In this document: positions 42,711-46,754 of the stretch, piece after piece
How the letters are laid out: each line of letters begins with the position of its first letter
Numbering within the stretch: the first letter of the stretch is position 1
Source: a virus
DNA length: 64,000 bases
Virus record (IMG/VR): IMGVR_UViG_3300027797_000016
Span: 41,060-105,059 of that record
Reading direction: 5' to 3' (one strand)
Notes under the pieces: model-generated
Told to the model about the DNA's origin: nothing
The model's database searches: none
What the model saw: the letters and a program-made list of their open reading frames with translations, nothing else
Position numbers and translations under genes: made by a program

Positions 42711-43502
42711 TTATTTATCGTCCTTATTTCTTGGTCTTCTTGTTGCTTTCCATCCTTTATAATTATCTTGCTTTCCATTTACGACTTCATATACAAACTT
42801 AGAAAATAAATTATTTTCTTTGCAAAATTTTAAAGCATTAATAGTTTTAAATATTTCACCATCAGGAGAAATAAAAGTATAAACATACTTACATTTTGAA
42901 TCACTTAACTTTTCTTTAGTTTCAATAGTGTGATTTTTATTATAAAAAGGATTTTTTTCTCCCGTTATATCTCTTCCACCATTTTCCCAAAATTTTTTAT
43001 GCGACACACTTATTTTATTTTTATGCTCCTCTTCTTTTTTAATTCCTTTCATTTTTTTGGAAAATTTTTCAATATGTTCTTTTGATTTTGGTGGTTTTGA
43101 TTTACCCTTTAAAGATTTTGATATATTTTCTCTTCTTTCTATACTAAATTTAATTCCTGTTTTTAATTCACTCATTCTTTTTTTACAATTTTCATATAAA
43201 ACTGAGGTATATCTTACTTGAGTTTTATTTTTTGCACTCATACTACAGAATGCCTGATTCATTTTAATAGTTTTATAATGCTTTAATCCATACCTTTTGA
43301 TACAAATCTTTTCCAATAATGCGTGAGCAATATAATGTTCTCTTGCGGCCAAATAGACAATTCTTTTATTATTTCCATATATGCTTTTAGGAAATGTATG
43401 ATGTCCCTCAACATACACTCCTTTCTCCTTTGCTTTCTTTTTAGTGTAATTTCTTTGTTCTGCTTTTCTTATGAGGTTACAATAAACCTTTAGATAATTC
43501 AT
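42711..43502 (-). CDS. HNH homing endonuclease with NUMOD3 repeats
   Basis: 263 residues from the ATG at 43502 (MNYLKVYCNLIRKAEQR); an upstream TTG would lie in the leader stem. Residues ~25-70 hold the HNH core (VYVEGHHTFPKSIYGNNKRIVYLAAREHYIAHALL), a form common in phage endonucleases. NUMOD3-like repeats follow (KTGIKFSIERRENISKSLKG, KSKEHIEKFSKKMKG), then GGRDITGEKNPFYNKNHT and a C-terminal NUMOD-like domain. The GRDITGE(K/N)NPFY segment is shared with the GIY-YIG protein at 44250. Confidence 0.88.
   Translation of the reverse strand: MNYLKVYCNLIRKAEQRNYTKKKAKEKGVYVEGHHTFPKSIYGNNKRIVYLAAREHYIAHALLEKICIKRYGLKHYKTIKMNQAFCSMSAKNKTQVRYTSVLYENCKKRMSELKTGIKFSIERRENISKSLKGKSKPPKSKEHIEKFSKKMKGIKKEEEHKNKISVSHKKFWENGGRDITGEKNPFYNKNHTIETKEKLSDSKCKYVYTFISPDGEIFKTINALKFCKENNLFSKFVYEVVNGKQDNYKGWKATRRPRNKDDK
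42712..42719 (-). promoter_or_regulatory. Late promoter GATAAATA
   Basis: Minus-strand GATAAATA 31 bp upstream of the start of 36889-42681. It overlaps the 3' end of the HNH gene. Confidence 0.7.
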
Positions 43503-43513
43503 ACTGCTCTTAA

Positions 43514-43589
43514 AACTGACTAGCAATATTATTTATACTAAAAAGGAGGAGATTTTAGTCTCCTCCAACCTCAAAGATGCTAGTCAGTT
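43514..43589 (-). promoter_or_regulatory. Endonuclease leader: inverted repeat enclosing terminator and late promoter
   Basis: 12-bp exact inverted repeat: 5' arm AACTGACTAGCA (43578-43589), 3' arm TGCTAGTCAGTT (43514-43525), extendable with a small bulge to the AAGAG before the ATG. The loop has a terminator and TATAAATA (43530-43537). Layout equals that at 4682-4754. Confidence 0.8.
43540..43566 (-). terminator. Rho-independent terminator after the Mom-like gene
   Basis: Minus strand GGAGGAGA-CUAAAA-UCTCCTCC stem (8 bp, 43545-43566) followed by TTTTT. Placed inside the endonuclease leader. Confidence 0.85.
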
Positions 43590-43598
43590 AAGGCATTT

Positions 43599-44231
43599 TT
43601 ATTTATTACTCTTCCACTTATGATCTTTCCATTTTAGTCTTTTTTCTAATTCTTTATCAAAGATTAGCATATATCTATGTTTCCTGGTTCTCTCTCTCCA
43701 CTCGCCTTTAAGACTCCTTGTAGGACCTCTTGAGTGCTTTATATAGGATCCATCAGGTTGTTCAATCCAGAAGTCACTCTTAGGATCGGTCGTCCCAAAA
43801 TACCGGAAATTAGTTGCACGATAAATGACTCCTGTATGGTGATTAGCATCAGCATAGCTAAGAATACAACGAACATTTGCATCTTTACGAAACCTCTTGA
43901 TACAACGACTTACGAACCAGGATGTGATATTATATTCTTCTTTTTGGACATCTGGATGAACACAAAGTCTTGAGAGTTCATAGAGACCTTCCTGTTCATT
44001 TCTTTGTAGTCCAAATGCACCTACGGCAAGCTCTGGAACTGGGAAAGAAGTAAAAACGCAAGCAGCAATAGGGCTGCCAATTCTAAGGACATCTGTGAAA
44101 GATTTTCTATAGAGTGCATAGTTATAGTGACTTTTAAAAGTTTTACTCTCATCCTTAAGATAATGATATGTTAAAAGGAGTGGTTCAAGTTCTTTTTTTG
44201 TCACTCTTTCTATATAGAAGTCACTTTTCAT
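43599..44231 (-). CDS. Mom-like DNA adenine modification protein (GNAT-fold)
   Basis: 210 residues. Motifs in the order seen in the phage Mu Mom family: TYHYLKD (21-27), GSPIAACVFTSFP, YELSRLCVHPD (84-94), NITSWFVSRCIKRF, CILSYADANHHTGVIYRATNFRYFGTT (123-148). Mom proteins convert adenine to a carbamoylmethyl form and protect phage DNA from restriction. Substrate here is unproven. Neighbours are homing endonucleases on both sides. GTAAATA late core at 44251-44257. Confidence 0.8.
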   Translation of the reverse strand: MKSDFYIERVTKKELEPLLLTYHYLKDESKTFKSHYNYALYRKSFTDVLRIGSPIAACVFTSFPVPELAVGAFGLQRNEQEGLYELSRLCVHPDVQKEEYNITSWFVSRCIKRFRKDANVRCILSYADANHHTGVIYRATNFRYFGTTDPKSDFWIEQPDGSYIKHSRGPTRSLKGEWRERTRKHRYMLIFDKELEKRLKWKDHKWKSNK

Positions 44232-44249: not shown

Positions 44250-44783
44250 TTATTTACTAACACGATTATATGATTTTCCATAAAATGGATTATTTTCTCC
44301 AGTAATATCTCTTCCACAATCTTTCCAATATTTTTTGGCAGCTTTTCTCATTTTATTTTTAGTTTCCTCACTATGCGGTTTTCTTTTTCTATTCTTAGAA
44401 GAAAGTTTCATTTTTTCTATTGTTTCTGGTGAATGTTTTTTACCATAAAATGGATTTTTACTGCCAGGTTTTGAAATTTTTTTCTTAGTATCTTCATTAT
44501 GCGAATATCCAGATATTCCATCACCACCGTTAGTCATATTACGAAGAATACCAGTTCTCAAATCTTTTCTACCAAAAATAGAAATCATATAAACTTCGTG
44601 TTTATTTGCCTCTTCTTCTGTAATATTTTTCTTTAAGAAGATAATTTTATTATTGTCTTTTGGTTTTAAGTTTGTTTTATTTTGTCTAATATGACTTTTA
44701 TAAACTCTCCTTCCTCTACCTTTACCAATATAATAGGGAGTTCCGTCTTTACGCAAATATGCGTAAGTGTAATATTCGTTCAT
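44250..44783 (-). CDS. Free-standing GIY-YIG homing endonuclease with NUMOD3 repeats
   Basis: 177 residues from the ATG at 44783 (MNEYYTYAYLRKDGTPYYIGKGRGRR); upstream starts would lie in the leader. GIY-YIG core, catalytic helix (EEEANKHEVYMISIFGRKDL) and NMTNGGDGISGY as in 3994-4665. Two or three NUMOD3 units follow (NEDTKKKISKPG, SPETIEKMKLSS, SEETKNKMRKAA), ending GRDITGENNPFYGKSYNR. Shorter than its sister, so fewer repeats. Confidence 0.9.
   Translation of the reverse strand: MNEYYTYAYLRKDGTPYYIGKGRGRRVYKSHIRQNKTNLKPKDNNKIIFLKKNITEEEANKHEVYMISIFGRKDLRTGILRNMTNGGDGISGYSHNEDTKKKISKPGSKNPFYGKKHSPETIEKMKLSSKNRKRKPHSEETKNKMRKAAKKYWKDCGRDITGENNPFYGKSYNRVSK
44251..44257 (-). promoter_or_regulatory. 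Late-type promoter GTAAATA
   Basis: Minus-strand GTAAATA 19 bp upstream of the Mom-like gene, at the stop of the GIY-YIG gene. Confidence 0.5.
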
Positions 44784-44857
44784 TGTGTCTTGGTGTTGAC
44801 TATTAATATTTATAACATAAAAGTGGGACTTATACAACTATATCCACCAAGACACAA
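44783..44857 (-). promoter_or_regulatory. Endonuclease leader: 13-bp inverted repeat with late promoter in loop
   Basis: Exact 13-bp inverted repeat TTGTGTCTTGGTG (44845-44857) / CACCAAGACACAA (44783-44795). The 3' arm runs into the A of the ATG. The loop contains TATAAATA (44807-44814). No terminator hairpin here. Confidence 0.8.
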
Positions 44858-45216: not shown

Positions 45217-45288
45217 AGCCCCCGATCTGATTTGAACAGACGGCCGACGGTTTACAAAACCGTTGCTCTACCACTGAGCTACAAGGGC
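45217..45288 (-). tRNA. tRNA-Thr(UGU)
   Basis: Cloverleaf on the minus strand: acceptor GCCCUUG/CGGGGGC with G-U pairs, D-arm AGCUCAGUGGUAGAGC, anticodon arm ACGGU-UUUGUAA-ACCGU (anticodon UGU), T-loop UUCAAAU. No encoded CCA. A sigma70 promoter ends only a few bases upstream of the 5' end. Confidence 0.92.
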
Positions 45289-45599: not shown

Positions 45600-46316
45600 T
45601 TATTTATTGATCCATTTGCGAATAGAATTATCACTAACACCATATTTTTTACCTACAGCAAGATAAGAACTTTCTTTTACTTCTTGTAATAATTGTTCTT
45701 TAGAAGGTCTTTCAACTTTTCTTTGAGATTTTGAATAACAACTATTACAAAGACCCGTTTTGCAGTTTGTTTTTAATTCAACCTCACACGAAGAACATTT
45801 ATGAATTTTTTTGGTTCGTATTATTTGAATTTTATTTTTTATTGTTTGTGAGTTTTTATTTTTCTTATTTTTACCACGATATGTTGGTGTTTTAGCGTGG
45901 CAGTTGGGACATAATATTTTTAGATTTTCTAACATATTGTTATAATGGTCTCCATCAATATGATCTAATTCTAAAGGTATTGGTTCTCCTAACCATTCAC
46001 TCAACTCACAACATTCGCATCTATGATTCTTTAATCCCTCTATAATTAATCTTTTTCGCAATTTGTTAGAATTGTACTCATAATTCTTAACAAGTATTTC
46101 GCTTAATGGAGTTGTATTAAACTTGTGAGTTTTCCCCTTTAGATGTCCTTGACCTGTAAAATGTGAAGTGTCTATTCCATAAAGTTTTTCAAATTTTTTA
46201 AATACTCTATAGTTTCCACCTCTTGGAGATAATCCAAGTTTTGTAAGTGCTTGTGCTATAGAAAAACTTTCTTCTACTGCTTTTTTAAAGTCTTCTATAG
46301 AATATGAATGTTTCAT
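45600..46316 (-). CDS. HNH homing endonuclease adjacent to the intron-containing tRNA
   Basis: 238 residues from the ATG at 46316 (MKHSYSIEDFKKAVEE). The N-terminal helices (SIAQALTKLGLSPRGGNYRVFKKFEKLYGID) look DNA-binding. The HNH core near residue 95 (HRCECCELSEWLGEPIPLELDHIDGDHYNNMLENLKILCPNCHA) has the CxxC and CxxC zinc pairs. A second zinc ribbon (CSSCEV ... CNSC) and a C-terminal helix-turn-helix (YLAVGKKYGVSDNSIRKWI) follow. It starts 48 bp downstream of the tRNA-Leu gene and could serve intron homing. Confidence 0.88.
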   Translation of the reverse strand: MKHSYSIEDFKKAVEESFSIAQALTKLGLSPRGGNYRVFKKFEKLYGIDTSHFTGQGHLKGKTHKFNTTPLSEILVKNYEYNSNKLRKRLIIEGLKNHRCECCELSEWLGEPIPLELDHIDGDHYNNMLENLKILCPNCHAKTPTYRGKNKKNKNSQTIKNKIQIIRTKKIHKCSSCEVELKTNCKTGLCNSCYSKSQRKVERPSKEQLLQEVKESSYLAVGKKYGVSDNSIRKWINK

Positions 46317-46359
46317 ACTGATAAACATATTGTATAGTTATTTATATAAGTTTATCAGT
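46317..46359 (-). promoter_or_regulatory. Endonuclease leader: 10-bp inverted repeat with late promoter in loop
   Basis: Exact inverted repeat ACTGATAAAC (46350-46359) / GTTTATCAGT (46317-46326), the 3' arm directly before the ATG. The 23-nt loop contains TATAAATA (46339-46346). The most compact of the four such leaders. Confidence 0.8.
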
Positions 46360-46363
46360 TCAA

Positions 46364-46716
46364 TAGGAGCGGGGGGACTTGAACCCCCACGGTCTAAGAC
46401 CAGCGGATTTTACTTACCACTATAGTTTTCACTACCCTTTCGGTTTGTGGTCTGGACTATGCCTTCACCATTTACTAAAAGTAATTAGGTGGGTGATTAT
46501 AGTCTCTACACGTTTTGTATTCTTTCAGATAATTCAAACCCTCTCTGAAACCACATTGGGTAGCGGTTGTCTTTCCAACTGTCATACAACTTCGCTCGGC
46601 GTTGGCATCAGCATTACCCGTTAAGCGTTCACCGAATTTACACCTTACTACTTACTCGTTTCCAAATAAGCGACCCATTTTGAGTCCGATGCGGCTACCA
46701 ATTACGCCACACTCCC
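46364..46716 (-). tRNA. tRNA-Leu(UAA) interrupted by a group I intron
   Basis: Exon 1 (46683-46716): acceptor GGGAGUG, D-arm GCGUAAUUGGUAGCCGC, anticodon stem UCGGA and loop CU. Exon 2 (46364-46412): UAAAA completes the loop CUUAAAA, then UCCG, a long variable arm (UGGUCUUAGACCGU), T-arm GGGGG-UUCAAGU-CCCCC and acceptor CGCUCCU plus A73. No encoded CCA. The spliced anticodon is UAA. The U27-C43 pair is a mismatch. Its own sigma70 promoter begins transcription about three bases before the tRNA. Confidence 0.9.
46413..46682 (-). other. Group I intron, 270 nt, ORF-less, in tRNA-Leu anticodon loop
   Basis: P1 pairs exon GACU and C46682 with intron GGGUC, giving the required U-G at the 5' splice site (U46683, G46675). 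Core elements: P AAATTCGGTGAACGC (46625-46639), Q AACGCCGAGCG (46593-46603; P4 UCGGUG/CGCCGA), R GTGTAGAGACTATA (46498-46511) and S AAGGCATAGTCC (46454-46465; P7 GACUAU/AUAGUC). The last base is G46413. Insertion lies between U33 and U34, one base from the classical cyanobacterial tRNA-Leu(UAA) site (34/35). Confidence 0.88.
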
Positions 46717-46725
46717 GATAAGACA

Positions 46726-46754
46726 ATCATAAGACCTCTGCCTCAGATTGTCAA
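46726..46754 (-). promoter_or_regulatory. Sigma70 promoter of tRNA-Leu
   Basis: TTGACA (46749-46754), 17-bp spacer, TATGAT (46726-46731) on the minus strand, with start predicted near 46719. A 10-bp dyad GTATCATCCC/GGGATGATAC (46757-46787) lies just upstream over the end of the preceding gene; it lacks a U-run. Confidence 0.85.

Follow-up and report, generated by a model that had tools for sequence, protein, structure and literature searches.

Sequence analysis confirmed that the window, a stretch of 64,000 nucleotides from a 105-kb virus fragment whose tail protein is closest to those of T4-like cyanophages (41–44% identity), carries on its minus strand, at positions 46364–46716, a tRNA-Leu(UAA) gene interrupted by a 270-nt group I intron without an open reading frame (ORF). 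The reading favoured here, with a probability of roughly 0.7, is that this intron belongs to a phage lineage, is self-splicing and spreads by collaborative homing with the adjacent gene of an HNH endonuclease, which a hairpin enclosing a late promoter would keep under control. The features on which this reading is built are collected in Table 1.

Table 1. Coordinates of the split tRNA-Leu(UAA) gene, its intron and the adjoining elements within the window.
Feature	Position	Strand	Evidence
Sigma-70-like promoter TTGACA-17-TATGAT, upstream of the tRNA	46726..46754	-	11/12 consensus positions; a match, not proof
tRNA-Leu(UAA) 5' exon, 34 nt, last base U33	46683..46716	-	ARAGORN with introns; alignment to intact cyanophage tRNA-Leu
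Group I intron, 270 nt, no ORF	46413..46682	-	RF00028, 30 bits; leave-out profile, E 3.3e-25; covariation
Internal guide GGGUC; partner exon GACU (46683-46686), U-G at the splice site	46672..46676	-	P1 pairing in 20 introns
P3 5' strand GGUG; partner CACC (46492-46495)	46641..46644	-	Double changes at all four pairs
P4 5' strand UCGGUG; partner CGCCGA (46596-46601)	46630..46635	-	100% paired; double changes at three pairs
P7 5' strand GACUA; partner UAGUC (46455-46459)	46500..46504	-	100% of cells paired
tRNA-Leu(UAA) 3' exon, 49 nt, anticodon UAA first	46364..46412	-	ARAGORN with introns; intact relatives
Putative hairpin ACTGATAAAC/GTTTATCAGT, late-promoter-like TATAAATA (46339-46346) in the loop	46317..46359	-	Layout in relatives; fold z -2.88
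Free-standing HNH endonuclease, 242 aa; start conserved in relatives probably ATG at 46316	45600..46328	-	phrog_10822, E 1.2e-55

Run with introns permitted, ARAGORN places a split tRNA-Leu with precisely the same outer ends, its inner boundaries being slightly off, and the exons, once joined, fold as a complete class II tRNA-Leu(UAA) that matches intact relatives. The group I covariance model of Rfam (RF00028, Intron_gpI), a search already envisaged in the original prediction, aligns end to end with positions 46431–46692 at 30 bits (E 7.8e-6 over 501 searched bases), which lies under the curated gathering score of 50 bits. A leave-out profile made from related introns, without the window intron and without its 93% identical twin, detects the window intron with E-values of 3.3e-25 and 2.8e-9. 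No substantial ORF was found on the intron's own strand over its 270 nt, so that both the length and the ORF-less state had been called correctly; the tRNA halves, the U-G of P1, the P/Q/R/S elements and the terminal G described beforehand are likewise all present on the minus strand.

The intron is inserted between positions 33 and 34 of the tRNA (33/34 hereafter), as originally claimed, and not at 34/35. Intact tRNA-Leu(UAA) genes of related phages (DSL-LC03, S-SSM4 and the syntenic contig L129) read CGGACTTAAAATCCG across the junction, and those of the cyanophages DSL-LC03 and S-SSM4 align without a break to the joined exons at CGGACT/TAAAATCCG; the L129 gene, the nearest intact one, is 89% identical to the joined exons. 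Because only 33/34 restores the sequence of the intact relatives when the anticodon is UAA, the junction is placed at U33/U34, and this placement also yields the P1 U-G pair and a terminal G (46413). A tRNA-Leu(CAA) with its junction at 34/35 or later, as called by ARAGORN, also pairs, but its 5' exon would end in C or A and its intron in U or A, the P1 U-G pair would be absent, and all 44 intact relatives contradict it by reading CTTAAAA. Protein-spliced tRNA introns are short, lie canonically one nucleotide 3' of the anticodon (37/38) and carry a bulge-helix-bulge motif; an intron of this type was rejected in view of the insertion at 33/34 and the full ribozyme core.

The ribozyme structure was assessed in an alignment of 20 introns from different phages and tRNAs, with variable loops trimmed. 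Under the group I pairing scheme 94.8% of cells are paired, a value reached by none of 500 shuffles, and slid versions of the scheme pair 30–40% of cells. Double changes occur at 32 of the 48 pairs, and 11 helices are backed by covariation, the P3/P7 pseudoknot included, with 98.8% of cells paired in P3 and 100% in each of P4, P6 and P7, all with double changes; part of the lower pairing (86%) seen for P2 in the L332 group is artefactual, this helix having been damaged by column trimming. The U-G pair at the 5' splice site is constant (20/20 introns). The next two P1 pairs are C-G and A-U in introns at 33/34, and U-A and C-G in those at 34/35; in these pairs both strands vary with the site of insertion, so that the guide is rewritten in step with it. 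The pre-tRNA would probably be transcribed from the sigma-70-like promoter, after which the intron would fold, its guide GGGUC holding the 5' exon GACU through the U-G pair, and two guanosine-initiated transesterifications would join U33 to U34, giving a normal tRNA-Leu.

Although the original prediction recognised the split tRNA itself, it overlooked the adjacent HNH gene, which starts 35 nt after the tRNA end and whose product has a weak HNH match in Pfam (16.3 bits) and a clear match in PHROGs. An endonuclease-free intron with a free-standing endonuclease gene at this short distance downstream is the layout of collaborative homing, and it is conserved in relatives. In co-infecting relatives with an intronless tRNA-Leu gene, the HNH enzyme would most likely cleave that gene close to the anticodon loop, the corresponding site in its own genome being split by the intron, and repair would copy the intron, the 3' exon and the HNH gene together. 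Intronless alleles exist at the same locus: in a survey of 80 contigs retrieved via a neighbouring gene, tRNA-Leu(UAA) is intact in 44, all syntenic, split in two contigs (L173 and L188), and was found in none of the 34 remaining stretches. The psbA intron of cyanophage S-PM2 and its endonuclease F-CphI provide a precedent for the split layout and for collaborative homing, likewise with an endonuclease-free group I intron and a free-standing endonuclease beside the split gene of a T4-like cyanophage (PMC6083498). It differs from the window in that psbA rather than a tRNA is the target and in that F-CphI has an Endo VII motif whereas the window enzyme is a phrog_10822 HNH protein; moreover, in the case of the window, different introns stand beside nearly the same endonuclease. 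Collaborative homing, known at S-PM2 psbA, is proposed here with a tRNA target.

An alternative, which is unlikely but deserves attention, is that the intron splices itself while the HNH gene is an unrelated homing gene of the tRNA region, like T4 SegB, that lies nearby by chance, the intron being immobile or moved by other means. Many phage tRNA arrays that contain no split tRNA (L341–L361) do harbour members of this HNH family, and in two contigs (L126 and L149) a related HNH gene (53%) lies beside an intact tRNA-Leu, so that the family can exist at tRNA-Leu without an intron. However, all nine of the closest HNH relatives (78–95% identity, several of them near-duplicates) directly follow split UAA tRNAs at a similar distance, and more distant relatives are encoded inside about 17 phage tRNA-Leu introns of 670–880 nt, one of them in a 595-kb phage (LR756511, L324). 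Four states therefore coexist, with no temporal order implied: an intact tRNA, an intact tRNA with HNH, a split tRNA with HNH outside and a split tRNA with HNH inside. Under collaborative homing, the partnership itself calls for some explanation, because the introns beside the nine closest relatives are at 34/35 wherever the junction could be placed, whereas the window intron is at 33/34: either one enzyme tolerates both sites or the partnership is recent. In one of these relatives (L339) the HNH gene starts inside the intron, and in another (L332) DNA identity with the window is 92% from the intron end through the HNH gene, with differing tRNA exons. Turnover of partners between these introns and endonucleases is suggested by other introns of the 33/34 family, which are often found near other HNH-like or endonuclease VII-like genes, some of them assigned only by eye. 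Two further homing-type proteins with NUMOD3 are encoded at 42711–43526 and 44250–44837, on one side of a tRNA-Thr (45217–45288), so that the tRNA region appears to be a cluster of homing genes; between them lies a gene for a Mom-like DNA modification protein (43599–44231; Pfam PF25680, 71 bits; phrog_1384).

The candidate hairpin lies between the tRNA and the HNH gene, its 3' arm ending at the ATG start codon, and in L126, L188, L332 and DSL-LC03 related HNH genes are preceded by the same layout with TATAAATA, the arms differing in sequence. All nine TATAAATA octamers of the window (54086, 46346, 44814, 43537, 34930, 30486, 27925, 20128 and 4703) belong to the minus strand, which also carries most of its genes, and several lie just upstream of ORFs, as expected of T4-like late promoters. 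In T4 homing genes, the late promoter is positioned so that the hairpin forms only in read-through transcripts (PMC2988022). By analogy with T4 SegB and I-TevI, which share the control layout of late promoter and hairpin, and the first of which also lies in a tRNA region, the hairpin with the late promoter in its loop may hold back HNH translation until late transcription. Both T4 proteins are, in contrast, GIY-YIG enzymes, I-TevI being intron-encoded and SegB having no intron partner. This hairpin and the promoter upstream of the tRNA are taken as sequence matches only.

From its sequence, the window intron is a member of a phage-borne family residing in tRNA-Leu(UAA) and tRNA-Met/Ile(CAU). 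A search of IMG/VR with a P7 pattern gave 119 stretches, many with split tRNAs, and refinement, which demands a terminal G, yielded 67 distinct group I introns spread over phage tRNAs with several specificities, namely UAA at 34/35 (36), UCU at 34/35 (10), UAA at 33/34 (8), CAU at 33/34 (4), GUU at 35/36 (3) and a few others, counts that depend on the patterns searched and may include a few erroneous single calls. Another cyanophage-like contig (L204), whose RNR gene is 83% identical to that of Synechococcus phage B23, has an intron 93% identical to that of the window but tRNA exons only 72% identical and different neighbouring genes, which indicates that the intron moved separately from the tRNA. 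Split tRNAs read as UCU, UCA, UUU and GUU (L366, L122, L107 and L093) contain introns with nearly the same core as the window intron, so that the lineage is not confined to the Leu and Met/Ile tRNAs. On each of four contigs (L010, L041, L057 and L090) two different tRNAs are split, either Leu and Arg or Arg and Asn, and some phages thus carry several tRNA introns. The split tRNAs of L332–L340, L173 and L203 have a UAA anticodon together with a short, class I-like variable loop, unlike class II tRNA-Leu. The last 59 nt of the window intron are 97–98% identical to L188/L332, and the intron was considered as a chimaera; since all these families share the flanks of this stretch and differ only in the P9 hairpin, recombination is suggestive only. 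P7–P9 is also about 80–98% identical over 50–80 nt to introns in crAss-like DnaB genes and in the capsid gene of Pelagibacter phage HTVC120P, which differ in having mRNA hosts, in scoring only 19–62 bits with core model R1 and, in the DnaB introns, in containing GIY-YIG. In L326, L328, L330 and L331, unannotated group I intron 3' ends that share P7–P9 with the window intron lie in crAss-like DnaB genes beside GIY-YIG.

A host origin was one of two explanations put forward at the outset: the intron would be the ancient cyanobacterial tRNA-Leu(UAA) intron, its splice sites slid by one nucleotide. The cyanobacterial and plastid intron shares with it the group I core, the compact size and the anticodon loop of the same tRNA, and core model R1 matches cyanobacterial tRNA-Leu introns with 46–78 bits, the upper value being the best cyanobacterial match in 291 genomes. 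Nevertheless, a host origin is improbable. The site at 34/35, named as the usual one in the original prediction, holds in all 113 cyanobacterial loci placed, where the guide pairs one nucleotide further 3', and an approximately unbiased (AU) test rejects a single group of the 33/34 UAA phage introns and the cyanobacterial Leu introns (p = 0.0045), so that the tree comparison suggested earlier separates the two. Grouping the same phage introns with cyanobacterial tRNA-fMet introns (p 0.0023) or with the L188/L332 type (p 0.0021) is also rejected, and their monophyly alone is not (p 0.097). The core tree separates the window family, with 88% support, from a group that unites the L188/L332 phage lineage and all cyanobacterial introns; tree and AU tests are based on 113 columns only, with the deeper branching uncertain, and this core-only tree supersedes a first one whose alignment had endonuclease ORFs mixed in. 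Model R1 gives 94–127 bits for phage introns at 33/34, except for L362 (46.5 for the stretch matched), and 75–88 bits for the L188/L332 type. The tRNA-fMet introns of cyanobacteria (L372, L375–L379) resemble the phage CAU members in being inserted at 33/34 before CAU, as read from the sequences, and have a similar P9 end, but their cores score only 62–69 bits. Closer kin of the window intron are instead phage introns in other tRNAs, and an independent insertion, the second explanation, fits better, with a phage intron lineage entering the same loop position of several tRNAs. What stands of the earlier interpretation is hence a compact phage group I intron in tRNA-Leu(UAA) at 33/34, without the shifted host intron. 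A second phage lineage, the L188/L332 type at 34/35, is nearer to the cyanobacterial introns in the tree, so that for this lineage exchange between host and phage may have occurred.

It is very improbable that the intron is kept chiefly as a shield of the pre-tRNA anticodon loop against host anticodon nucleases, or to delay maturation, with mobility being secondary. It is known that phage tRNAs counteract defences based on tRNA cleavage (PMC13096335), and every phage intron placed here is in the anticodon loop, but bacterial tRNA introns also sit there, so that position alone is no evidence, and the tRNA is intact in most syntenic relatives. Finally, a degenerate intron within a non-functional tRNA gene, as the Rfam score under the gathering cut-off might suggest, is scarcely credible, given that the window core has standard pairs, the terminal G and U-G are retained and the joined exons make a complete tRNA matching intact relatives.

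Phage tRNA introns have largely been overlooked by annotation. Default ARAGORN, run without introns, and Rfam at the gathering cut-off both skip the window intron, reporting nearby only the tRNA-Thr. In 2014, a review placed all phage group I introns then known in protein genes, despite the many phage tRNA genes (PMC3984707), and no report of group I introns in phage tRNAs was found in the literature searched, which did not take in most subscription journals or any preprints. For instance, the isolated jumbo phage Agrobacterium phage Atu_ph07 (MF403008) carries at 1254–1615 an unannotated tRNA-Leu(UAA) with a 278-nt group I intron, and its paper never mentions introns. In Microcoleus phage My-WqHQDG, a tRNA-Arg feature of 286 bases is annotated, so at least one annotation has picked up a split tRNA.

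The window amounts to a natural experiment on how introns spread, as nearly the same endonuclease stands beside introns at sites one nucleotide apart, P1 tracks the site, and all stages from an empty tRNA to an intron-encoded endonuclease are represented. It also supplies a testable vehicle for the long-standing question of how tRNA introns pass from one cyanobacterium to another. Tentatively, phage tRNA genes may be an extensive and mostly overlooked reservoir of mobile group I introns, which would jump from one tRNA species to the next via re-specification of P1 and swap homing-endonuclease partners. Phages might then be the route by which tRNA introns, among them the L188/L332-type lineage close to those of cyanobacteria, have moved from one bacterium to another.
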